Of a DNA stretch of 64,000 nucleotides, positions 45,564 to 58,210 are shown one piece after another. The stretch is from Nitrosomonas sp. Nm34. Its GTDB lineage: Bacteria; Pseudomonadota; Gammaproteobacteria; Burkholderiales; Nitrosomonadaceae. Location: contig NZ_FORD01000009.1 in NCBI RefSeq assembly GCF_900113925.1, forward strand, positions 1-64,000, read 5' to 3'. Made by a program: the position numbers and the translations under genes. How positions within the stretch are numbered: the stretch's first letter is position 1; every line of letters starts with the position of its first letter. A model generated the notes under the pieces. The model worked only from the letters and a program-made list of their open reading frames with translations. It ran no database searches and was not told where the DNA came from.

Positions 45564-46163
45564 TTATTTTCCAGAAGAGAATTCCATCAGACGCGCTACA
45601 TAGCGTGCCAGCATGTCCGATTCCAAATTTAATTGTTCACCCGGTTTAAGATGTTTCAGGTTTGTTTCAGCTAGTGTATGGGGAATGAGATTGATTTCCA
45701 GGATATCGTCACAGATACGATTAACGGTCAAACTGACACCGTTGACCGTAATCGATCCTTTTACTGCCATATATTTTAACAGTGATGGCGGGGATTTGAT
45801 TGCCAGCAGATAATTTTCTCCAACTTGCTCGAATTTCGTTACTTCACCGATCCCATCCACATGGCCACTGACCAGGTGACCACCTAATCGATCCGTTAAG
45901 CGCATAGCCTTTTCCAGATTAACATAATTACCTACTCTATTCAGGCCAAATGTACAATACAACGTTTCCTCGGACACATCGACTGTAAAAAGATGGTTAG
46001 TTAATGAAGTTACTGTCAGACACACACCATTCACTGCAATACTATCACCCACTTTGACATCGCTCATCTCGAGCTTGCCTGGCTCAATTTGCAGGCTGAT
46101 TGCATTCGATTTCTGGGTAAGTTGTTTAATTTCTCCGATTGCTTCGATGATTCCTGTAAACAT
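45564..46163 (-). CDS. ribE: Riboflavin synthase alpha subunit
   Basis: RibE dismutates two lumazines to riboflavin. The 199-residue protein has two lumazine-binding barrels: MFTGIIEAIGEI with VNGVCLTVTSL in the first and GHLVSGHVDGIGEV with VNGVSLTVNRI in the second. The length is normal. It is the first gene of the leftward rib-nusB-thiL-pgpA-pncC string and ends 10 bp before ribB. No ribD gene lies alongside. Confidence 0.95.
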   Translation of the reverse strand: MFTGIIEAIGEIKQLTQKSNAISLQIEPGKLEMSDVKVGDSIAVNGVCLTVTSLTNHLFTVDVSEETLYCTFGLNRVGNYVNLEKAMRLTDRLGGHLVSGHVDGIGEVTKFEQVGENYLLAIKSPPSLLKYMAVKGSITVNGVSLTVNRICDDILEINLIPHTLAETNLKHLKPGEQLNLESDMLARYVARLMEFSSGK

Positions 46164-46350
46164 TTTTATTTTCCTAACATTGAGAAGCCATCACCTTGAT
46201 TATGCTTCTTGGCGACGCAATCACCAGCATACGCCATCCTGAAAGTTTTTTTCAATTCAAATTGCCCAGAACATACGGCTAGTACCAGCTTTATTAATGC
46301 TAACGGCTTTTGCCGAAATGTTTTTCGCTTCCCACGAATTGTTTTATTAC

Positions 46351-46374
46351 TTTGGCGAAGCTAGTTTCGCCAAA
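46351..46374. promoter_or_regulatory. Palindrome upstream of the sigma-54 promoter, candidate enhancer site
   Basis: TTTGGCGAA and TTCGCCAAA (46351-46359 and 46366-46374) are perfect 9-bp arms around six bases. The centre lies about 120 bp before the -24 element, where sigma-54 activators usually bind. The cluster itself encodes such an activator (56843-58210), which makes this its likely site; a terminator for an unseen transcript is the alternative. Binding is inferred. Confidence 0.5.
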
Positions 46375-46481
46375 TTTCATAGTTCCTTTTCCATATGATG
46401 CCTCAGATCGGTTAATTATTTCATCATATTTTCAACCTATTAAGTAATTTTTAAACCAAGTGCTCTGGCAGCAACCATTTC

Positions 46482-46496
46482 TGGCACGATCCTTGC
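46482..46496 (+). promoter_or_regulatory. Sigma-54 (RpoN) promoter, -24/-12 type
   Basis: TGGCAC at 46482-46487, five bases, then TTGC at 46493-46496 is an exact match to the core sigma-54 consensus. It faces the gene at 46636, with a leader of about 130 nt. A sigma-54 activator gene at the far end of the cluster and an upstream palindrome strengthen the call. Confidence 0.85.
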
Positions 46497-46635
46497 GCAT
46501 ATCTATTTGAAGGCAACCAAGGTTGAACAGGCTGACCTGACGAGAATGAAACCAAACACGTTAACGCAAGACCTGATGACTGATTTGATCATAACCCGAT
46601 GCGTAACGAAGATCTAAAAATTGGAGGACTAAGCC

Positions 46636-47292
46636 ATGCATGATATTGATCGCACAATGATGGAATATGAGCCAGAGATGGAACCTGAAGCTGGTTATGA
46701 GTTCGGTGAATTTGAATATGCTGATATGGAAGGAGTACTCGATGAAGCCGAGGAAATGGATTTGGCAGCAGAATTGCTAGGTGTGACAGATGAAGCAGAA
46801 CTCGATCAATTTATCGGAAAGCTGTTCAAAAAAATCGGAAGCAAAGTAGGCAAGTATATTAAATCTCCAACCGGCATTGCACTAAGGGGCATTCTGAAGA
46901 GCGCTGCGCAAAAAGCACTGCCAATGCTAGGCACAGCGATTGGTGGTCCCGTAGGCGGTGCACTGGCCAGTCAATTGGCAGAAGCTGGAAACGAAATCTA
47001 CGGTATGGAGCTGGAAGGGCTAAGCGAAGAAGATCAAGAATTTGAAATGGCAAAACAGTTCGTACGTTTTGCCAGTACGGCGGCGGAGCAAGCGGCCGGT
47101 GCCCCTCCTCATATCGAACCAAAGGTAGCGGCAAAATCTGCCGCGATAACATCAGCCCAGCAGCATGCGCCCGGCCTGTTACGCCCTGCCCCTTCCGCTA
47201 TGTCCATGTCTACTATGTCGCTGCCGGGTAGTGGCCGCAGTGGGCGTTGGGTCAGACGGGGCAGCAAGATCATTCTGTATGGCGTCAAGTAG
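46636..47292 (+). CDS. Acidic-tagged protein with Gly-rich hydrophobic segment, function unknown
   Basis: The 218-residue protein has three parts. Residues 1-60 are strongly acidic with regularly placed aromatics (AGYEFGEFEYADMEG; EAEEMDLAAELLGV). Residues 60-125 contain lysine-rich amphipathic helices (FIGKLFKKIGSKVGKYIKSP) and a Gly/Ala-rich stretch (LPMLGTAIGGPVGGALASQL) that looks membrane-active. The C-terminal third is helical, then Pro/Ser-rich and basic (GRWVRRGSK). There is no signal peptide. It is the first gene after the sigma-54 promoter and has a strong ribosome binding site. I do not recognise a named domain; pore formation or membrane anchoring is only a suggestion. Confidence 0.8.
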   Translation: MHDIDRTMMEYEPEMEPEAGYEFGEFEYADMEGVLDEAEEMDLAAELLGVTDEAELDQFIGKLFKKIGSKVGKYIKSPTGIALRGILKSAAQKALPMLGTAIGGPVGGALASQLAEAGNEIYGMELEGLSEEDQEFEMAKQFVRFASTAAEQAAGAPPHIEPKVAAKSAAITSAQQHAPGLLRPAPSAMSMSTMSLPGSGRSGRWVRRGSKIILYGVK

Positions 47293-47318
47293 TCATTGCA
47301 TTGATTGGAGTGTCACTC

Positions 47319-48629
47319 ATGGTGAACAAACCTGTTTATGTGCGCTGGATGTTAATGCAAGAGGCTCGTGCCATGCTAGTTCGGCTGTCTCAGGTAAAAC
47401 CGTTTGTACTGACCGAGTCAACTGTGCCGGCGGCAAATGCCTCGTTATCGGCTCAAACCGCAATTGATCGCTATCTGATGGCAGGGCGACATGCATTGCG
47501 GTTGCAGGTGCAATCCTATTTGCACTGGTTGCAAGGCCTGGACGATGAGAGCACCCGTCCAGCTGAGGCGCAGCAGCGTTTGAGTTTACTGCGGCTACGC
47601 TTCAACGCAACGCTTTCACAGCTTGATATTTTTGCAGATGCCTTGACGCAACGCAGTGAATATGAAATAGGTATCTGGTTAGCTGGGCTGGATGTCGTGG
47701 CCGCTGATGCATTGAGGTTGGAGGATTATTATGTGCCACCTCCCGTGATCTGTTATCTCGATCGTGGCTCGGGTGCGGCGATCCGCCGGGCCAGGACCCG
47801 CTTGCCGGGTGGTGGAGAAAATCCGGTGGCCGTGATTCGGGTGCCGCGCGAGCGGATGATTGGTAGTGGCATTGCCTCATCATTGATCCATGAGGTTGGT
47901 CACCAAGCGGCGGCGTTGCTGAATCTCACCAACTCCCTTCGGCAGGTATTGCAACAACAGGAGCGTGAGGTCAAGGATAGTATTTGGCGTTACTGGGAAC
48001 GGTGGATATCGGAAATTGTTGCGGATTTCTGGTCGGTTGCCAGGGTAGGGGTGACTTCAACCCTTGGCTTGATGGGGGTGGTAAGTCTGCCACGGGCGTT
48101 TGTCTTTCGCATGAATATGAATGATTCCCATCCTTTTCCATGGATTCGGGTCATCCTAAGTTGCGCTATCGGACAGGCACTTTATCCTCATCCGCAGTGG
48201 CCTCGACTGGCCCAACTCTGGAAGTCGTTTTATCCAAAGGCAGACTTGGATACGGCTGGTTATACCTTAGTTAATCAGCTTGAAGCCGGGATACCTGAGT
48301 TCATCAACCTGTTAATTCACCATCAGCCTCGAAGTTTGCATGGCCAGTCACTAATTGATGTCATGGATACCGCCAATCGTCAACCTGATCGATTAAATGC
48401 TTATTTTGATCACTGGCAGCGGACGCCCGCAGCGATGTATCGCACTGCTCCGACTTTGGTATTTGCGGTGATTGGGCAAGCACGATCCGATGGCAGGATG
48501 AGTCCGGAACAGGAGAGCGCAATTTTGGCCAAGCTGCTGACCCATTGGGCAATACGCAGCACATTAAAAACTCATGCGGCCTGTGTAATGCCTGAACTAA
48601 CACCCCCGATAGCCAAGGTATCTTCATGA
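47319..48629 (+). CDS. Predicted zinc metallopeptidase (HExxH)
   Basis: The 436-residue protein has a helical N-terminal half and the motif SSLIHEVGHQAAALL, with zinc ligands His191 and His195 and catalytic Glu192. SEIVADFWS, 36 residues on, offers the third ligand Glu232, the gluzincin pattern. There is no signal peptide. I choose the ATG at 47319 because GGAG lies eight bases upstream; the frame is open from 47247, inside the previous gene. It starts 26 bp after that gene, so both are on the sigma-54 transcript. It could process neighbouring proteins, which is inference. Confidence 0.82.
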   Translation: MVNKPVYVRWMLMQEARAMLVRLSQVKPFVLTESTVPAANASLSAQTAIDRYLMAGRHALRLQVQSYLHWLQGLDDESTRPAEAQQRLSLLRLRFNATLSQLDIFADALTQRSEYEIGIWLAGLDVVAADALRLEDYYVPPPVICYLDRGSGAAIRRARTRLPGGGENPVAVIRVPRERMIGSGIASSLIHEVGHQAAALLNLTNSLRQVLQQQEREVKDSIWRYWERWISEIVADFWSVARVGVTSTLGLMGVVSLPRAFVFRMNMNDSHPFPWIRVILSCAIGQALYPHPQWPRLAQLWKSFYPKADLDTAGYTLVNQLEAGIPEFINLLIHHQPRSLHGQSLIDVMDTANRQPDRLNAYFDHWQRTPAAMYRTAPTLVFAVIGQARSDGRMSPEQESAILAKLLTHWAIRSTLKTHAACVMPELTPPIAKVSS

Positions 48630-48685
48630 ACCTGAGGGTGGCATAGCACAAGGGGTGCAATTGATTTTAATTGAGGAGAAATATT

Positions 48686-50530
48686 ATGGAAAATGAAAAG
48701 GACGACAATGATCTTGGAGAAAATCGCATTCGAATTCACCATTCTACTGGAACATATAGTGATATAGAGGGGGGAAGTGCAATCACGACGCTTATACAAA
48801 AAGCGACTGCGTATTTCGATGCAGGTTTCGTTAGGCAGACAAGCACAGCTTTGGAGCCTTCGGCAGGAACGCCAACGGACGACCAGGCACTTTGGGCAGC
48901 GATACGGGATCGCACGAATGCTATTAGCTTTGAACAATACAATAATTTTATCGAGCGAGTATTTTGCGCCCCCCGCACATCTGACCAGGGCAGAGCAGTA
49001 TGTTGTCCAGAGTTTGAGGATTCAGGTCCAATAGGGATAAGCTCTACATCGGATAACTGTCGAAATATGCCGTGTAGTACTTCAGATATTGAAGCATCTA
49101 ATAATTTCGTTAAAACCAGCTCGATCGGATCGCCGTCGATTAATGAAAGGTATGAAGAATTATGCAGGCGACCCGGCATTTATGGCACCGATGCCTATCA
49201 GTTATTAAAGCTAGCGACACAGGCATTTTTGCTGTTTGAAAGCGGAGTCGTGATTGAAGGAGCAAGAGATCCTGGCAGTGGTCGATTTCTCGTACCTAAT
49301 TCTTCTGGTCTTCGCGGACGTAAATGTGATGACAATGTGCCGGTAGAAAAAGAGCGGGGTAACCTAAATGATACTTCTTTTGGAACGCTCCAGGGTACAT
49401 TAGAGCGTTATCTCACAACCACCTTAGGCGCTAACAGAGCACTACCTTATTTGAAACGTATCGTCAGCGCTCTTCCTTCATTGAATTTGAGCACTGAAGA
49501 GGGACCGCCGTATTGTAATATTATTCTGCAACATCGGCTCAGCTGCCCGAGCCTCCTGGAGCTCATCTGGTCCTATTGGCACGAGGAAGGCATGCTGGTA
49601 CAGACAATGAATGCCATTTCCCTGCGATTCCAAAACAAGAAGCGGCACGCAAAGGATCCGCTGGCGAATCTGGCACTTGATTCTTTACGTCCTCTGAATA
49701 ATATTCTTTGGGGATATATCCAGGATGAGCCTAATCGGTTAAGCATACAACGCCGCTGCTACGAATACGACAGTCAATACGGCATTACTCTGGTAGGTAA
49801 AGCTGTGCCCAAATTGGAATCTGCCGATAGCCGCTCCCAGTTTATCAAGGCATTTCATAATTTGCTTTATCGTACAGTATTGTTTTACCGTGAAGATGAT
49901 GATAACACCATCAAAGCCGATGCTTTCTCATTACTCAACGCCCTGCGAGAAGTACATATTATTCTGGCGGAAGGAGCGATCAACCAGTTCGGCGATTTAC
50001 CATGGACTGCACGCCATGAGATGTTGCTGATGCAATGGATGCTGGCACGGCCCGAAACGAAGGAGTTCTTGCGGGGCCGTTATTCTGTGCCATACCAGGA
50101 AACATGGATGGGGGCAGTGGATGATATGAAGCGCTTACAGGGCTGGTCGGATGTCACCGTCACACATTTCCATGAACTCGCCATAAAAGGGGAGCAGATC
50201 TTGCTCTCCATCCGCTATGGCGATTGGATTGATATTAATAATCAGGAACAGGCCAGAAATTGGGCGCGTGACTGGCGGCCTGAAATTCAGCGCTATATAC
50301 ATGCCTACTATGCAGTGTCGGGGGTTGATCTAACTTCGGAAACCGTCGATGCCCGCGCAGCGGAAGCGCGTTATGCACAGCCATCTCTATTGCTTCAAAA
50401 ACGACTCGCGATGCAGCAGCCAAAAAATAGGGTTGCCGGCCCTAATCAGCGTTTGGCGAATATCCGGCGGACGGGGTATGGACCCTTGACAAACAAAATG
50501 GCGAACCGTCTGCGCATTGAGCGAAGCTGA
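48686..50530 (+). CDS. Large protein of unknown function in the sigma-54 cluster
   Basis: The 614-residue protein has a cysteine-containing N-terminal third (FCAPRTSDQGRAVCCPEF; NCRNMPCSTSD) and a mostly helical remainder rich in Trp, Arg and Glu (LIWSYWHEEGMLVQTMNA; WIDINNQEQARNWARDWRPE). The C-terminus is Gln/Arg-rich and basic. No signal peptide, membrane helix or known catalytic motif is visible. The ATG at 48686 follows GAGGAG closely; five residues upstream are also open. It lies 56 bp after the metallopeptidase gene and 35 bp before the next, so it is an operon member. Confidence 0.75.
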   Translation: MENEKDDNDLGENRIRIHHSTGTYSDIEGGSAITTLIQKATAYFDAGFVRQTSTALEPSAGTPTDDQALWAAIRDRTNAISFEQYNNFIERVFCAPRTSDQGRAVCCPEFEDSGPIGISSTSDNCRNMPCSTSDIEASNNFVKTSSIGSPSINERYEELCRRPGIYGTDAYQLLKLATQAFLLFESGVVIEGARDPGSGRFLVPNSSGLRGRKCDDNVPVEKERGNLNDTSFGTLQGTLERYLTTTLGANRALPYLKRIVSALPSLNLSTEEGPPYCNIILQHRLSCPSLLELIWSYWHEEGMLVQTMNAISLRFQNKKRHAKDPLANLALDSLRPLNNILWGYIQDEPNRLSIQRRCYEYDSQYGITLVGKAVPKLESADSRSQFIKAFHNLLYRTVLFYREDDDNTIKADAFSLLNALREVHIILAEGAINQFGDLPWTARHEMLLMQWMLARPETKEFLRGRYSVPYQETWMGAVDDMKRLQGWSDVTVTHFHELAIKGEQILLSIRYGDWIDINNQEQARNWARDWRPEIQRYIHAYYAVSGVDLTSETVDARAAEARYAQPSLLLQKRLAMQQPKNRVAGPNQRLANIRRTGYGPLTNKMANRLRIERS

Positions 50531-50565
50531 TTGCAGCTCAGAGTAAAGTCTGAAGGAGATCAATT

Positions 50566-51918
50566 ATGAAATATGCATTGAATCTAGAACCCGAAAGCGG
50601 CGGCAATACATTCGAAATGGATGAATTCGAGGATGAGGCAACTGATAACTTTTGGGAACTGGACGGAAACCCTGGTTATGAGTGTGGATCAAGCGCTGAA
50701 TTCGACACGGAGTTAGGCGAGGCAGAATGGGAGGCCGAAATCAGAAGAGGGCAGCGTATGCCTATGCGTCCAACCGGGCTTAGGCCTGCTGCTTACCGAA
50801 GACCTGGCTCATCAGGTCAACCTAAACCTCGTGGTAACTATCCGTTTCATAAACACGGGAAATATAGGCGCTGGCCTGCGGGCGTTATAACAGCACCCCA
50901 TAGTTGCACCTGCCCAGCGCCTAACTGTCCACGGCATGGCAGCGAGTATGTGCGTTGGGTGCAAAACACGTTGAATCAGGTTTTGGGACTGCGACTCCCG
51001 GTTACCGGCATCATGAATCCGGCGGCACGGAGCGCTGTTCGCAGCTTCCAGCAGCGCCAAGGGCTCCCCGTCGATGGCATTGCCGGTCCTGATACAGAAC
51101 GTGCGCTAATTGCGGTGAGAAGTGGAAAATCACCCGGCAGTGTTGCTGCAAAACCTGCTGAGACAGATATGGTGACACCGCTTGCATCGGTCAAGGTACC
51201 ACTTACTGCAGAATTCGACTTTGAATTCGAGCGGCTAGAAGCCGCTGGAGAGCGTCAGAGCAAGGCCCTGGCTAAGCGCCTACAGAACACACCAGTCGGC
51301 CGAGCGCTTACAAAGATGGGAGCAAAAATTACCATTGAGAAGGCCCCGCTCTTGCACCCCGCGCATTGGGTACGCGGCCTGAGCAGTTTTGAGGTGCGCT
51401 GTGGTGGACAACGAAACATCAATGTCGTGTTTGGGCTGTTTGACCAGCAGAAGAAAATGCTGGCTTGGTACCTGTTTTCTTCGACCGTAGACTTAAGGTC
51501 AAGGCTCGCGTGCAAAAGAAGTGGCTCAAGACCAGTCGTGAAACCTTTTGGAGTTGCTAGCGCCGTTGCCACTTTCACTCCCGACCTCCAGAAAAGCCGG
51601 ATTGACGTATTCGAATTGGTGCGTGACGCTAAAAGTCCATCTGCAACAATGACATTGAACACTAAGATTGATAAGAACCGCATAACTTGCCGCTTGGATA
51701 ACCTCAATACTAAATCAAATGGTCTGGTTCACCTAACTTTCGGTTTAATAAAAGTCTCCGAACCTTCAAGCGCGAATGCCCCCATACCTGGCAAGCTGTT
51801 TTTCCTAGATGTTGAGCCGTTTGATGAAGAAAAGTTCAGAGAGCCTTCTTTTCTGGACCCTCGGCGTATATGGGGTCCTCAGGCAATAGCCGAGAGGAAA
51901 GCCATATCTAACTTTTGA
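50566..51918 (+). CDS. Acidic-tagged peptidoglycan-binding protein, variant 1
   Basis: The 450-residue protein has an acidic-aromatic N-terminus (FEMDEFEDEA; EFDTELGEAEWEAE), a basic Pro-rich linker, a small Cys motif (CTCPAPNCPRHG) and a PG_binding_1-type three-helix module at about residues 127-185 (YVRWVQNTLNQVLGLRLPV; FQQRQGLPVDGIAGPDTERAL). The last 220 residues are beta-rich and unlike anything I recognise. There is no signal peptide. The module is nearly repeated in the protein at 52355, but the C-terminal parts differ. Cell-wall targeting is expected from the module; the activity of the C-terminus is unknown. Confidence 0.82.
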   Translation: MKYALNLEPESGGNTFEMDEFEDEATDNFWELDGNPGYECGSSAEFDTELGEAEWEAEIRRGQRMPMRPTGLRPAAYRRPGSSGQPKPRGNYPFHKHGKYRRWPAGVITAPHSCTCPAPNCPRHGSEYVRWVQNTLNQVLGLRLPVTGIMNPAARSAVRSFQQRQGLPVDGIAGPDTERALIAVRSGKSPGSVAAKPAETDMVTPLASVKVPLTAEFDFEFERLEAAGERQSKALAKRLQNTPVGRALTKMGAKITIEKAPLLHPAHWVRGLSSFEVRCGGQRNINVVFGLFDQQKKMLAWYLFSSTVDLRSRLACKRSGSRPVVKPFGVASAVATFTPDLQKSRIDVFELVRDAKSPSATMTLNTKIDKNRITCRLDNLNTKSNGLVHLTFGLIKVSEPSSANAPIPGKLFFLDVEPFDEEKFREPSFLDPRRIWGPQAIAERKAISNF

Positions 51919-52354
51919 CCATGGTTTATTTCTTGTGAAAAAAATTGGGATGAGGCAATTTTGGCTAGTTACTGGTGAGGATATTCGTGAGGCTGAGTTG
52001 GCGTGTCGCGGAGTTCACCAACAACTTTCCAAAAATACCGACTTCAAGAATGAAATGAATTAGGAGTGAAGACGGCGACAAATATCATAAAAACGTAATT
52101 AGCCGGGGGTCCTAAAAATGGAGAACAAAAATGAATGCAAGTGAAATAGGGTCGGAGTGAATTTCATTGTAGAGAGGGCGAACACTATCGAGGAAAACGC
52201 ATTCTTTGCCAGGAACAACTTACCAGAGGATCGCGAATGGTTGCTGTTTCTACCGCCTTGATGAGGACACCCTTTACTCTTCTGTTCTGTGAATAACCGC
52301 TGTAAGCCCGGAATAAACGCCAGCACATTGGAAGAATAATTATGGAGTTTAGTC
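51919..52354. other. Gap between the two peptidoglycan-binding genes
   Basis: No gene is evident in these 436 bp. Stops occur in all frames, and no sigma-54 motif or repeat copy was found. The gap may be the residue of a deleted cassette gene, given the modular neighbours. A ribosome binding site (GGAG) lies just before the next ATG. Confidence 0.45.
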
Positions 52355-54493
52355 ATGAGCAATGAATACAGTTTTAAAGAGCAGCCATTTAAGGCTTCTT
52401 CCGAATTTGGGGAAGAAGAGAGCGAATTCGATCCAGAGACTTTCGGTGCTGAGCTAACCTACTCCAAATGGAAGGAGGGAATGCGGGGCAGCACGCCTTG
52501 GTCGTCCAAGCGCCGTATATGGAGGTATTCATCTCCTCCGTTGTTTGTGGACAAGGTTGAAGGTGAATCTGTCTCCTGTGCCTGTCCCGTGCACGGCACT
52601 GCGTTCGTCCACTGGGTGCAAAGTTCATTGAATCAGGTTTTGGGTCTACGGCTCCCGGTCACCGGCATTATGAACGCGGCGATGCGGAGCGCGTTGCGCC
52701 GGTTTCAGCAACAGCGGGGTCTTAGGGCCAACGGCATCGCCGGCTCGGAGACCCGGCGCGCCTTGGTCGAAGCGAAGAAATCTGAAAAGGGACAAACCGG
52801 CGGCTTAACCGACCCGGCCGAATATGCGGAATTATTGGCTGAGGTTAGTGATAGTGGAAAAGCAGATGCTTTTGTCGCTGACAAGAACGGAAAAAAATAC
52901 TTTGACTCATTTCCGCAGCTTGGAAATTTAAAAGTTCAACGAATAACCATCTTGAAACCGTCAAATTTCGAGAATCTCATCGATCTGATGCTGGCATCGA
53001 ATCAAAAGAACTTCGTGATTGATGCTCATGGGAACCCTTATGGCTTGACTATGCCTTTGGCAAGCTCAACTAGAATATCTGCAACAAAAAATGCTTTGTT
53101 CATCCTGGGGGGTATTGAATCTGTTCGATCCTTGGTCCGCTGGGCTAAAGAAAGTGATACTTTCTGGGGACGAGCTTCTGGGATGGATTTAGATAGATGG
53201 CGGCGGATTGTGGAAGTCATGCATTCCAAAACATGGCAACAGATGGTGGCTGGATGGCCAAAGATAACCCCCAAAGTCTCCACAGTAGATGCAGCTAAGA
53301 GGATTGTTCAAGCTCGCCTCAACTCACTCGTGGATTCCCTATTCCCCGGAAAAGTTACCAACAAACAAGATCGAGTGAATAGGCTTATCAATAAAATGCT
53401 GCGCTTGCAAGCCCAAGGCATCCGTGAGATCCAATTTCGTGCATGCAACATCGGGAAAGACTTGGATTCACTGTATGAGTTTCGGAAGTTTTTTGGAGCT
53501 GATCACCTCTGTGCTCCTGATGTGCGTAGTGGCATGGGACCCCTAAGAAGATTTGATATTAGTCGGGGAGCTGTTGATCGATTAGCGCGCAATCGTCGAA
53601 CCCAGGTATTTAGTATGCCTAGTGGCCGATTGGCCATCCTCATCAATGTCCTGAATCACGAATTTGAAGCATTTTGTGCAGCAGATGCACAGGCAGCCGT
53701 GAATGAATGGATTGCCACTCACATCATGGCTCACTCGACCTATCGACGAGGAGCATTTCCAATTCATTTTCTGCAAACGCAGCCGCCAGTCTTTCCATTA
53801 GATAATGACTATGCGGCTCATATTAAGTGTCGTTCATCTTTCTGGGAAAGTGTCATTCGTAAGAGTGAAAAGCGCCAGCAAGAAATCGAGGATTATGACG
53901 AACGGGAAGAAAACTGGGCGCTCAAGAAACCGGAAAATGAAAAATATGATGAATATATTGGCCAATTGAGCGAAGAGGAATTTGAAGAAGGTGGCACAAT
54001 GCCGGTGCTGTCGCTTGACAAGCTCAAGATCGATGGCCTTCCTGAGATTATCTTGACGTTAGGGGATAGTGGGCAATACCAGGGGTTTATTAGAAAACCT
54101 CCATCGTCATACAATGGATCGGTAAAGCTAAGCGGAAGGGTTCAAATTGAAAAAGCGGGAACCCGTCGGAACTATGATTACGATCTCGATCGTAGCCAAT
54201 GGCTTTTGGGTAAGGTATGGGCCAATGTTGAAATTGGCGGCGCTATCTCTTCAAGTAGCGCAAGTTTCTCTTCTGTCAAGCGCGACGGGGCGTTTACCAC
54301 ATCGACCTGGATCGGCTATAAACCTTACCTGGTTCGCCGTCTCACAATAAAAGTGATATTGGCGCTGAGAAACGGCAAGAGGTTTGGAACCAAAGTAGTG
54401 GTGGAGCTAATCGACCTGGCCGGGTTCCTATCGGTCGTTTTGACCCTAAGGAGAAGACCCGCCCTGGGTGGCAAACCCACTTGCAGTTTCTAG
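52355..54493 (+). CDS. Acidic-tagged peptidoglycan-binding protein with caspase-like domain, variant 2
   Basis: The 712-residue product starts with an acidic tag (FGEEESEFDPETFGAEL), a short Cys motif (SCACPVHG) and a PG_binding_1-type module (about residues 83-138) very close to that of the previous gene. Residues about 190-400 carry VIDAHGNPYGL (His225) and EIQFRACNIGKDLDSLYEF (Cys364), the order and setting of the His/Cys dyad in clan CD peptidases such as caspase or DUF4347-like proteins. A charged segment and a beta-rich region follow. The last 25 or so residues look out of frame; the true continuation appears to be the next reading frame. Confidence 0.75.
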   Translation: MSNEYSFKEQPFKASSEFGEEESEFDPETFGAELTYSKWKEGMRGSTPWSSKRRIWRYSSPPLFVDKVEGESVSCACPVHGTAFVHWVQSSLNQVLGLRLPVTGIMNAAMRSALRRFQQQRGLRANGIAGSETRRALVEAKKSEKGQTGGLTDPAEYAELLAEVSDSGKADAFVADKNGKKYFDSFPQLGNLKVQRITILKPSNFENLIDLMLASNQKNFVIDAHGNPYGLTMPLASSTRISATKNALFILGGIESVRSLVRWAKESDTFWGRASGMDLDRWRRIVEVMHSKTWQQMVAGWPKITPKVSTVDAAKRIVQARLNSLVDSLFPGKVTNKQDRVNRLINKMLRLQAQGIREIQFRACNIGKDLDSLYEFRKFFGADHLCAPDVRSGMGPLRRFDISRGAVDRLARNRRTQVFSMPSGRLAILINVLNHEFEAFCAADAQAAVNEWIATHIMAHSTYRRGAFPIHFLQTQPPVFPLDNDYAAHIKCRSSFWESVIRKSEKRQQEIEDYDEREENWALKKPENEKYDEYIGQLSEEEFEEGGTMPVLSLDKLKIDGLPEIILTLGDSGQYQGFIRKPPSSYNGSVKLSGRVQIEKAGTRRNYDYDLDRSQWLLGKVWANVEIGGAISSSSASFSSVKRDGAFTTSTWIGYKPYLVRRLTIKVILALRNGKRFGTKVVVELIDLAGFLSVVLTLRRRPALGGKPTCSF

Positions 54494-55437
54494 CCTCGGT
54501 GCGAAAGGTTTTTCATGGTAATGCCAGAGAACCCCAGTTCATCGGGCCATTCAACTGGATATTGTATCGACATCGGAACGTAGAGCCACTGTTTAAGTTT
54601 TGCACTCCCGATGAAGAACGGCTTCAAGCCAAGCCCAAACATTGTAATCCCGCGCAACAAGCCGCAGAAAAGCGGCTTCGGCTCTACAAAATGCTCTATG
54701 ACAAAGGAGAGTGGCTTGAAATAGGACATGTACTTGCCGGGATTGAAGGCTCGCCAAAGCAGGAGCCGAATAAGAATCAGAGTGTTCCAATACCAATCCG
54801 ACCGGAACTAATCGTGACTTGGTCGGGCGATTTGGGTAGTGCTTTGCAACGTTATATTCAGCATTTTTGGCTTGCAACTGACAAATACGGGAACCCCATA
54901 GACAAAAACGATCCACTGGACCTGAATTACTATCTTGTGAGGGAAGCGAGCCGGTCTGATTTAATTGGAGATATCGATGGAATCAATATCGGAAGCGTCT
55001 ATGATTCCTCACGTTCTTTAGCAGATAATCTGAATGCCTACTATGGCAAGAAAAGCCTTCGCCGGTATCATGATTTTATTGCTAACTCGAAGAACGAGAA
55101 AGGCGTGGCGGAGTTACCGCTGGAGCCTGGCAAGAAACCTCCCAAGCTCTCCAGACAAGCTTGGCAGACGATTGCTATTCATACCCATGGATATCTGAAA
55201 TATTTCTGGGTGACAGGCGCACTGTACCATGGCGCGGAGCCTGCCAAGCGCAAGCGGGTAGATGACATCATGAGGGTTAATAGCAAGTTGCTTCCCTTAT
55301 CTGCAGAAATTCAGCAGGTTACTGATTATTTTGTCCGCTTTCTTGAGGATGGGCTTGCGCTGGAACAAAGACAAGGTATCCAACCGGAACTTGAAGAATT
55401 TGATGAATTTCTTGATGAATTGAATGAGGAACAGTAA
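54481..55437 (+). pseudogene. Probable frame-shifted C-terminal part of the preceding gene
   Basis: This 318-residue frame has no ATG, no ribosome binding site and begins only at a TTG inside the previous gene. Its open frame extends further back with sensible sequence (VPIGRFDPKEKTRPGWQTHL) that fits on after ELIDLAG of the previous product. A single-base loss near 54413-54430 would explain both, giving one protein of about 1,025 residues. The part is helical, with a LYHGAEPAKRKRVDD segment and an acidic end (LEEFDEFLDELNEEQ) echoing the N-terminal tags. Independent translation from TTG is the alternative. Confidence 0.6.
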
Positions 55438-55969
55438 AAGCCAGAGAACGAGTTTGAAAACTGGAGCAAACAGAAAACGTCTTCTGCCCAAGAAAAACAT
55501 CCCAACTTACAGGAGAAATACAGGGGCTACTGTCTCTATTACATAAATGATAGAAAACTTGACTCTGCATCTGCCGTTTTAAAGGTGGGTGCGACAAACC
55601 GAGTATAACCAACCTGTGTTGCGTATCAAATAAGCAGGTAAACGCGGGGGCGCAGTTTCATCAGAATCAATGACCGAGCCCAGATATCGAGTTGGTCAAC
55701 ACTAACCAGATAGCTCCCGCGGGGAAATATGAAATTGTCGTTCAGCCGGTGGCAATATCTGTTTAGAGACTACCAGCCAATTTGGAGCAGGACAGAGCGT
55801 CATCGCGATTGCCAATGCTTCGGTCGCCTCGTCCGTGGCTCCTGCTGACGGTGGAATCTTGTTTGTCGAGGGCGGAGCGCTCATATGGATAGTTCATCGG
55901 CTATTCCTAACCAAATGCTCCATCTCTTGAGATGGTAAGTCCCTTTTAATTTCTAAGAGGAGGTGGACC
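55438..55969. other. Intergenic stretch with decayed coding sequence
   Basis: No intact gene is present in these 530 bp. Bases 55683-55891 carry a broken coding remnant (separate entry). The rest is unremarkable. A good ribosome binding site (GAGGAGG) stands just before the next gene. Confidence 0.5.
55683..55891 (+). pseudogene. Decayed remnant of an unknown gene
   Basis: Two short frames read like real protein: IELVNTNQIAPAGKYEIVVQ up to a stop at about 55775, then TSQFGAGQSVIAIANASVAS and APADGGILFVEGGALIW in another frame. The alternation of Val, Ala, Ile and Gly resembles a beta-structured structural protein, perhaps tail- or surface-related, but no family is claimed. No start codon or ribosome binding site is visible. 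Confidence 0.4.
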
Positions 55970-56773
55970 GTGATCATTGATTGCCACTGTCATGCCGGAA
56001 CAGGCGATGGCTTGACCGGCCCTTGGGACACCCGGGCAGCATTGCACGATTATCTGCGACGCGCATCAGCAGCAGGAATACACAAAACGGTACTGTTTGC
56101 TGCTTTTCATTCAAACTATGCCATAGCCAATGAAGAAGTGGCACGCATCGTATCGAAGAATCCTAAGCGCTTTTTCGGCTTTGCTTTTGTCCATTCTGCA
56201 CGTGATCGGGGACGTGTGCATGAACTGGTCAAGATTGCCGTTGAGTGCTATGGTTTCGTGGGCATCAAAGTTCACCGCCACGATGCCTCCATCACACGCG
56301 AAATCTGTGCAGTTGCGCGCATTTACAATTTGCCGGTGCTGTACGATGTAGCGGGTGAAGTATCGGTCTGCGAGCTACTTGCTCAAGAATATCCAGATGT
56401 TAACTTTATCATTCCGCATCTCGGCAGTTTTGCCGATGACTGGCGTGCTCAACTTGCTGTGATCGACCATCTGGTTCGCCATCCGAATATCTACGCTGAT
56501 ACTTCTGGTATACGACGCTTTGATTTGCTGAAACAAGCCGTCAAACGAGCGGGAGCAAATAAACTCTTGTTTGGCTCCGACGGGCCGTGGCTGCATCCGG
56601 GAGTTGAACTGACCAAGATCAAGGCATTAGGACTGCCGCCATCCCAGGAAAACTTGATTTCAGGAGGAAATTTTCTAAATTTAATTAGCGTAGCTAGAAA
56701 TGGCAAATCATCAATAGTGACAGGCAAGTTAGCTGGTTCAGCGAAAATAATGACTGCAAGCGCTCGATTTTAG
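55970..56773 (+). CDS. Amidohydrolase-2 family metal-dependent hydrolase
   Basis: The 267-residue TIM barrel begins IIDCHCHAGTG, the HxH metal motif, with further ligands in GIKVHRHD, FIIPHLGSF and the catalytic Asp in LLFGSDGPW. These mark the PF04909 amidohydrolases, which hydrolyse or decarboxylate small molecules. The start is a GTG after GAGGAGG. It lies between the effector-like genes and the convergent sigma-54 activator gene, whose 3' end is only 69 bp away. Its substrate and its link to the cluster are unknown. Confidence 0.85.
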   Translation: MIIDCHCHAGTGDGLTGPWDTRAALHDYLRRASAAGIHKTVLFAAFHSNYAIANEEVARIVSKNPKRFFGFAFVHSARDRGRVHELVKIAVECYGFVGIKVHRHDASITREICAVARIYNLPVLYDVAGEVSVCELLAQEYPDVNFIIPHLGSFADDWRAQLAVIDHLVRHPNIYADTSGIRRFDLLKQAVKRAGANKLLFGSDGPWLHPGVELTKIKALGLPPSQENLISGGNFLNLISVARNGKSSIVTGKLAGSAKIMTASARF

Positions 56774-56842: not shown

Positions 56843-58210
56843 CTAAAAATTTTCCTGGCGCTGCGCTGCCCGACGCATCTGAAGTGCACGGTCAGTAACG
56901 CCCAGACGCTGGGCAGCTTTTTGCAGGTTGCCGCTAGCTTCATTCACAGCAATTCGGATAGCGACATTTTTACTTTCCCGACTGATGGTTTTGAGATTCA
57001 CACCGCGCGTCAGAGCGACGCGGATAGCGCGCTCAAAGCCACCGTCGCACCATGTGCTCCAGTAACCAGTATGATTTGGTCGGTCTTCCGGAGGGATGCA
57101 GCCTACCGTGATTGCTCCTTGCCCGGCGTAATGGCAGAGCATACGTGCTACAACCTGTTTGAGATCACGTACGTTGCCAGGGTATTCGTGACGCAGCAGG
57201 TATTCCTGTACTAAAGCATCCAGCTCAGGGGGGCCTTGATTGGGGAGGAATACCTTCAGGAAGTGATTGGCCAAGGGAAGAATGTCTTCAGGACGTTCCC
57301 GTAAAGGCGGCAAATGGCAAACATAACTGGCGATACGGTAATAGAGATCCGCACGGAATTCACCGCGTTGCACTTGTGCGCAAAGATCGCGATTGGTGGC
57401 GCAAATCAAGCGGAAGGAAGTTTGCTGCCAAGTGTTGCCCCCGACACGTTTGAAGGTATGTTCTTGAATAACCCGCAATAGCTGGGCTTGCAGTGTCAGA
57501 GGGAGTTCTCCTACTTCATCGAGAAACAACGTACCACCGTTGGCAAGCGCGAACACCCCATCACGGGAAGACACCGCGCCAGTAAAAGCACCCCGCTCAT
57601 GACCGAAGAACTCGCTGCCGGATAATTCCGGCACGATCGTGGTACAATCCTGAATGACCAAATTGCCCTTGTTCGCACGGGGATCCAAGGCATGCACGAG
57701 ATTTGCCAGCAATTCCTTGCCAGTACCACTCTCACCAAGGATCAAAACCGACGCATCGGTGAAATGGGCCACTTCCACCACTTGACGTAGAATCGCCTTC
57801 AGAACCTGGCTTTCTCCCACTAATACATTCTGCACTACGGGTGAATTCACCAGACGGTGCACCGCCCCCCAGCGTTGAAGACGAGCAATGATCTCATGGA
57901 TGAGGGTATTATCTTGCGAACTCACTAAGACGTCACAAGCGCCTGCTTCCAATAGCTGCCAGACGGCATCACCCGTAATAGTCGTGTTACAACAGGCAAG
58001 CACGGCTATCTGACCATTACGGCTAAGTTCGCGTAATTGTTTGCAGATCTTTGGCGTGACCTCATTACTAAACATCACGCCTGCCATGCAGGAAAAACTA
58101 TTATCATAGTCGTGTACATCGATGTCCTGTTGATGCAATCGATCAACGATTTCATCAGCAGCTTGTTTCTGATAGCCATCCATCCAGCGAAACCAGACTT
58201 TGATAGTCAT
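56843..58210 (-). CDS. Sigma-54-dependent transcriptional activator (Fis-type HTH)
   Basis: The 455-residue protein has an N-terminal receiver-like domain (about 1-120), a central AAA+ domain with Walker A GESGTGKE (159-166), the sigma-54 contact loop GAFTGA (207-212) and [11 protein letters not shown] (225-235), and a C-terminal Fis-type helix-turn-helix ([19 protein letters not shown]). The receiver lacks a clear phosphoacceptor aspartate at the usual place, so the input signal may not be phosphorylation. It is the natural candidate to drive the sigma-54 promoter at 46482. It is transcribed toward the amidohydrolase gene. Confidence 0.93.

Follow-up and report, generated by a model that had tools for sequence, protein, structure and literature searches.

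RtcR, the activator of RNA repair, has a CARF-AAA-HTH architecture. Enhancer-binding proteins are described in passages of two papers as binding about 100-150 bp upstream of the promoter, to which they are looped, often with the help of IHF (PMC7057263, PMC7175178). For Desulfovibrio vulgaris, single-component enhancer-binding proteins have been reconstructed together with their local sigma-54 operons, as parts of PMC4641369 set out. Polymorphic toxin systems, as outlined in sections of PMC3482391, join shared N-terminal parts to varying catalytic domains, and peptidoglycan (PG)-binding and OmpA domains occur in them. The titles and abstracts listed in searches of open-licence papers contained no description of a CGAA-N6-TTCG motif or of the operon presented here.

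The window, which is the whole stretch of 64,000 nucleotides that was analyzed (Nitrosomonas sp. Nm34, contig NZ_FORD01000009.1, positions 1 to 64,000), contains a block of plus-strand genes (46636-56773), an activator gene convergent to this block, and a set of candidate regulatory elements upstream of the first gene:

46314..46327, no strand assigned: distal dyad CGAAATGTTTTTCG, candidate activator-binding site; the pair is kept across loci
46351..46374, no strand assigned: proximal palindrome TTTGGCGAA-N6-TTCGCCAAA; its conserved core CGAA-N6-TTCG is 46356-46369 (CGAAGCTAGTTTCG)
46430..46442, plus strand: putative IHF-like site TTTCAACCTATTA, located in the spacer that separates enhancer and promoter; it departs from the IHF consensus at one position
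46482..46496, plus strand: sigma-54 -24/-12 promoter core TGGCACGATCCTTGC, a pattern match, with the predicted start near 46508
46636..47292, plus strand: gene A (first gene); acidic N-terminus, glycine-rich middle, GRWxRRG C-terminus; no Pfam family at cut-off
47247..48629, plus strand: gene B; HEVGH motif, no Pfam family
48671..50530, plus strand: gene C, conserved protein without a family at the Pfam cut-off
50566..51918, plus strand: gene D, cargo-type protein; PG_binding_1, 3.1e-14
52355..54493, plus strand: gene E, cargo-type protein; PG_binding_1, 5.5e-11
54481..55437, plus strand: gene F; no Pfam family
55970..56773, plus strand: amidohydrolase gene (Amidohydro_2), adjoining the activator gene here and in most loci
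56843..58210, minus strand: sigma-54 activator (enhancer-binding protein) gene; AAA+ with GAFTGA, putative C-terminal helix-turn-helix

The initial annotation of this DNA had pointed to an exact RpoN core at 46482-46496. Indeed, TGGCACGATCCTTGC matches TGGCAC-N5-TTGC exactly, as does no other site in the 64 kb window, and it has the GG and GC dinucleotides of a sigma-54 promoter at -24 and -12 with the correct spacing. The base 3' of its TTGC is a G, instead of the usual W. With up to one mismatch allowed, the window contained 8 matches, against 5.3 expected from shuffles; because this count is near the shuffled expectation, one-mismatch sites in the window are uninformative. The genome encodes rpoN (Sigma54_DBD, 2.9e-64). 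Near-consensus -24/-12 sites, scoring 13.5-14.5 on an ad hoc, hand-made scale with a maximum of 14.5, were found 5' of the first gene in all 8 loci of the genus, which are related and are therefore not 8 independent observations. The best match was weak in 3 of 25 promoters (G704 11.5, L214 11, and L240 12.0, of 14.5), and an equally good site was present in 20% of the control windows for G704, 33% for L214, and 11% for L112. In G204, G330, G346, G481, L112, and L240, the -12 element departs from TTGC at its first base, which is not T.

The palindrome, with its 9 bp arms and 6 base loop, had been placed about 110-130 bp upstream of the promoter in the initial annotation, which agrees with the 108-131 bp found from the -24 box. 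The full palindrome has no second copy in the 3.8 Mb genome when up to 2 mismatches are allowed; allowing a third adds 1 place, against 4 for a reversed control. As a genome-wide search motif it was misleading until it was cut to CGAA-N6-TTCG. The idea that the palindrome is the conserved unit held for this core, which lies at the enhancer position, but not for the outer arms (TTTGG/CCAAA), which are unconserved; the real unit is a pair of dyads 42 bp apart. In the window, CGAAATGTTTTTCG and CGAAGCTAGTTTCG are exactly 42 bp apart, start to start. Single copies of CGAA-N6-TTCG occur 55 times in the genome, against 139 for a reversed control, while 2 copies at a gap of 18-48 bp are found in this genome only here (control 0). 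This second dyad, overlooked by the initial annotation, is the strongest part of the case.

The conservation of the dyad was assessed in 18 promoters found by protein homology at 17 loci (G018 has 2 promoters, and 2 of the loci are on Alphaproteobacterial plasmids), by counting every dyad with a 4-letter half site and a gap of 0 to 12, 3328 dyads in all. G602 (a 3.7 kb contig without the promoter), G728, L241, and H2 (a near copy of H1) were outside this set. CGAA-N6-TTCG was the best of the 3328 dyads, being present in 18 of 18 promoters. The next-best dyads, in 9, 9, and 7 promoters, all overlapped CGAA-N6-TTCG sites, and unrelated dyads reached at most 4 of the 18. In 16 promoters, CGAA-N6-TTCG is accompanied by another exact copy at a distance of 41-44 bp; in the remaining 2, the accompanying copy has one mismatch, at 42 bp in G001 and at 32 bp in Paraburkholderia phymatum L240. 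Within the genus, both dyads are exact at 7 of the 8 loci, and in G001 one of the two carries a single mismatch; the start-to-start distance is 42 bp at every locus. When the 8 genus regions were shuffled with their dinucleotides kept, at least 1 copy was seen in less than 1% of shuffles per region, and 2 copies in 0 of 2000 each. Spacings of 32 and 41-44 bp are close to 3 and 4 helical turns, and the distance from the proximal dyad center to the -24 box ranges from 38 to 130 bp across promoters. Dyad-symmetric, helically phased, and upstream at enhancer distance, the sites have the features of those recognized by enhancer-binding proteins.

Some of these upstream regions contain further symmetry. 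In G007, a perfect palindrome of 42 bp, with arms of 21 bp, encloses the distal dyad (L037:7534-7575). A further palindrome, TGTTCRGA-N4-TCYGAACA, is common to G005 and G031 (L077, L035); it lies about 320-340 bp 5' of the first gene A match, and a change in one arm is matched by a change in the other.

Pairs of dyads at a gap of 18-48 bp were searched for in 61 genomes, 37 of them of the genus, and were found in 12. The initial annotation had held that a palindrome frequent at unrelated sites would speak against its pairing with the promoter. Among the 37 genus genomes, the pair lies at the cluster in 7 (twice in G018, before 2 gene A copies), and at 2 stray places, G005:C38 and G023. Beyond the genus, 7 pair places were found in 4 of 24 genomes, all 4 without gene A, and 2 of these places had a 42 bp spacing. 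The reversed control pattern gave 6 places in 6 of the 61 genomes. Because of the stray pairs outside the genus and the reversed-control places, the dyad pair alone is not proof.

The 42-bp pair was also scanned alone over public genome contigs, where it matched at least 119 stretches. Genes A/B were found by tblastn in 7 of the matches listed, belonging to Cupriavidus respiraculi, 2 Janthinobacterium, Rhizobacter, Nitrosomonas nitrosa Nm90, a Methylococcaceae contig, and a Phaeodactylibacter MAG. In 6 of these 7 carriers, the pair, genes A, B, and C, and a convergent activator gene are on one contig; for the seventh, Methylococcaceae L214, an activator fragment beside the amidohydrolase gene stands at the start of a different contig, of 9 kb. 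Ten of the stretches listed (L103, L104, L118, L145, L148, L176, L180, L182, L195, and L209) come from 2 Paenibacillus genomes with an unrelated dispersed palindromic repeat that fits the 42 bp pair pattern. The cluster in the Phaeodactylibacter (Bacteroidota) MAG (L201, L277) has a TAA inside the activator frame, and its presence there may be a binning error.

Activator matches at E 1e-60, a threshold of our own choice, were present in 19 of the 61 genomes. Eight of these were near-full-length (1e-143 or better, G000 included), and 10, at about 1e-61 to 1e-64, covered mostly the AAA+ part. Homologs of gene A were found in exactly the same 8 of the 61 genomes as the near-full-length activators. 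In G035, a decayed activator gene with 8 stops (L044:17327-18285), without gene A and without the pair, is the trace of a lost cluster; the G001 activator is split over two frames. A gene B profile identified 4 further genomes among 399 of the order and 4 among 369 of the class. Six of these 8 contained genes A, B, and C and the activator, all with the pair at 41 to 44 bp and with the activator convergent at the far end. G728 and L241 each have a distant gene B homolog, and gene A, the activator, and the pair were not found in either. Plasmid loci of Rhizobium sp. CCGE532 (41 bp) and Ensifer adhaerens (43 bp) contain the pair, the promoter, and the activator. The P. phymatum plasmid has its exact and one-mismatch dyads 32 bp apart, and on the Paraburkholderia PGU19 plasmid only a distant gene B was detected, the pair not being found. 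A predicted GIM-2 beta-lactamase label on a Paraburkholderia plasmid (L241:3414-3515) spans 102 bases, which seems too short for a gene.

The activator gene is at the other end of the block, 10.3 kb from the promoter region, where the initial annotation had placed it at 10 kb. Its product matches Sigma54_activat (PF00158, 7.1e-58), with the Walker A motif GESGTGKE and GAFTGA intact, as in AAA+ activators. HTH_8 was matched at 13.0 bits, against a cut-off of 22, and the same region aligns with the helix-turn-helix of other activators. The first 125 residues matched no Pfam family at E 0.1, receiver families included, and no conserved phospho-acceptor Asp of the NtrC type was seen by eye at the expected strand end. 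When folded alone, this N-terminal domain had a mean pLDDT of 54.7, and comparison with the PDB gave no match at E 0.001 or better; from this low-confidence model, a degenerate receiver-like fold is possible.

A tree was built from 50 enhancer-binding proteins; in it, 20 cluster activators grouped in one clade with a support of 100/100, apart from 29 others, and a second activator at the G481 locus fell outside this clade. The tree was made without L170 (dropped by the GAFTGA filter), L201, L214, and G001, and the G704 frame was without its helix-turn-helix. The G011 activator pairs with that of N. nitrosa, and the activator of the window stands beside them, a placement that would itself point to Nitrosomonas as the probable source of the window. 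Most cluster activators have a common recognition helix near GVTDRALQ. GAFTGA is altered in 7 of the 23 readable cluster activators: GAFTSA in G018, GAFTNA in G204 and L201 (L246), GAFTHA in G330 and G346, GSFTGA in G298, and GAYTGA in L170 (L247). GAFTHA and GSFTGA are among the variants thought to retain function in passages of PMC4641369. A link between these variants and the -12 base, an idea gained by eye, was dropped, as there were too few cases.

Between enhancer and promoter, the pattern WWTCAR-N4-TTR, which was loosened after the sequences had been viewed, was seen 50-52 bp 5' of the -24 box in G704 and, among the genus loci, in the first promoter of 7 out of 8, where 0.026 would be expected per spacer. 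It was not found in the 2 G018 promoters, L112, or N. nitrosa L213. Matches to IHF with at most 1 mismatch were present in 7 of the 12 rows with a long spacer and in 3 of the 12 with a short one, Rhizobium L238 among the latter having a perfect match, and in per-promoter shuffles (L240 outside the set) the site was mostly not significant. The one thing that argues for the candidate IHF site is its fixed position.

What the sequence establishes is the promoter core, the phased pair of dyads, the conservation of both, and their co-occurrence with one activator clade. The tie between regulator and target that the initial annotation had proposed is supported by the conservation of the promoter and the palindrome core and by the co-occurrence of the local activator gene with both. 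Very probably, in our view, the paired dyads are the binding sites from which the local enhancer-binding protein activates sigma-54 polymerase for the operon of about 10 kb. The dyads could instead be operators of another regulator, for example that of the divergent riboflavin operon on the minus strand (ribE, encoding riboflavin synthase, starts at 46163), with the sigma-54 promoter nearby only incidentally. Riboflavin genes are the divergent neighbors here, in G011, and in N. nitrosa L213, but ribE/ribBA were not found in the stretches retrieved for the 6 remaining genus loci, nor in those for the 6 further loci, the plasmid loci, or the 5 remaining loci reached through the motif, where the pair still stands at the cluster promoter. 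Also, the pair, the activator, and gene A have the same distribution, and such operators seem quite improbable to us. Still less can be said for LexA (SOS) boxes of the Gram-positive type, CGAAC-N4-GTTCG: these fit CGAA-N6-TTCG, and both G298 sites read this way, but C...G was seen at the inner positions of none of the other cluster-promoter sites listed, and in these bacteria LexA should recognize a different box. We therefore rate SOS control as highly improbable.

The 9 bp arms and 6 base loop would also suit a transcription terminator or other RNA hairpin. Terminator-like matches numbered 18 on both strands, against 12.1 expected, but the palindrome is not among them and lies upstream of the promoter, and what is conserved is two phased short dyads and not the length of a stem; a hairpin is hardly conceivable as the explanation. 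The sigma-54 match itself could be fortuitous, with the operon read from an ordinary sigma-70 promoter. By arithmetic, chance alone would place the 10-letter core about 7 times on the two strands of 3.8 Mb, and a W-ended -24/-12 pattern occurs at 5 places in the genome (control 0). However, the near-consensus elements recur in every one of the genus loci even though the spacers are otherwise poorly alike (alignment scores of 0.37-0.58 of perfect, with one pair at 0.74), and the region has no more sigma-70-like matches than shuffling gives (17 against 17.8), which makes a chance match very improbable.

Under activation by the local enhancer-binding protein, then, sigma-54 RNA polymerase would sit at 46482-46496, and activator dimers would occupy the 2 CGAA-N6-TTCG dyads, 4 helical turns apart on the same face of the DNA. 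The activator would assemble its AAA+ ring, the DNA would loop to the promoter, with IHF at 46430-46442 perhaps helping, and ATP would be spent to open the promoter. That the product of 56843-58210 is the dyad binder we infer from co-occurrence, as conservation alone does not identify the bound protein. The activator clade, so far unassigned, thereby gains a predicted binding site and a target, and the rule of spacing by whole helical turns gives a sharp prediction. The pair pattern reached the same operon in Cupriavidus, Janthinobacterium, Rhizobacter, N. nitrosa, and others without a protein query; it is a DNA signature that can help to map the spread of the cluster. Switching on one promoter would be a direct route to the role of the cluster.

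We assume that the block is transcribed as one unit; it has internal gaps of 437 and 533 bp, and a GGAGG lies 5' of gene A at 46623-46627. Gene B likely starts near 47319, judging by homology, and from its HEVGH motif the product is a possible zinc peptidase. Its profile found no match among solved structures (best E 0.74), and protein B folded poorly (mean pLDDT 53.7). In gene E, the motifs DAHG and RACN are reminiscent of a clan CD cysteine peptidase. Many other loci have a PLP aminotransferase gene (about 375 aa, Aminotran_1_2) 3' of gene C, which was not found at 50530-50566 of the window or in the stretches of G298, G481, and L240. The amidohydrolase had no match in the fetched stretches of G018, G481, L238, L170, and L201. 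A PADLOC search with 6 operon proteins gave no match; with 8 more proteins, the activator had an RtcR-type match and a G018 trypsin-like protein weakly matched the LmuA and RT-Protease models. When 6 operon proteins were compared with PHROGs, D and E matched endolysin PG-binding domains, and A had 2 weak matches to unknown families.

The genes near the activator end vary by locus, while A, B, and C are constant (L037, L031, L043, L042, L231, L234, L238, L239, L225). The cargo of other loci includes Amidase_2, GH25, Peptidase_M74, glucosaminidase, DUF2272, DUF4056, trypsin, and GIY-YIG, often with PG_binding_1; for 2 of the 3 G204 cargo proteins, no family was found. At L037:13965-16349, a protein of 794 aa joins PG-binding, gene A-like, and amidase domains, and a PT-VENN match there is just below the cut-off (19.9 of 20.3 bits). 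A constant core with varying catalytic cargo is the arrangement of polymorphic toxins and lytic effectors. From this core and the varying wall-degrading, protease, and nuclease genes, we reason, on weaker grounds, that the switch probably turns on a secreted, wall-attacking (lytic) programme. More tentatively, and with some doubt on our part, the block may be an undescribed, sporadic, and modular lytic-effector system with its own clade of sigma-54 activators and a phased CGAA-N6-TTCG pair. Such a system would consist of the constant A, B, and C, usually with the aminotransferase and amidohydrolase, and of swappable cargo, many of these proteins having acidic N-termini and PG-binding domains.

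As a regulatory device, the locus is of a known type, a sigma-54 promoter with a local enhancer-binding protein. It has upstream sites for an AAA+ activator in common with PspF, NtrC, and NorR, whose binding motifs differ from the dyads here and whose targets are unrelated. RtcR is the best NCBIfam match of the activator and, as RtcR_PspF2, the best PADLOC match, in both cases over the AAA+ and HTH parts. However, its 289.8 bits fall short of the equivalog cut-off of 650, the matches begin at residue 125-127, without a CARF match, and the target genes differ from those of RtcR. Like polymorphic toxins, as sections of PMC3482391 describe them, the cluster would join shared N-terminal parts to varying catalytic domains, here predicted from the genes. 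The D. vulgaris cases, in the parts of PMC4641369 that set them out, are similar in having an AAA+ activator with GAFTGA and predicted sites 5' of a neighboring sigma-54 operon. They differ in their motifs and targets; the dyads described here form a phased pair that is found across many genera.
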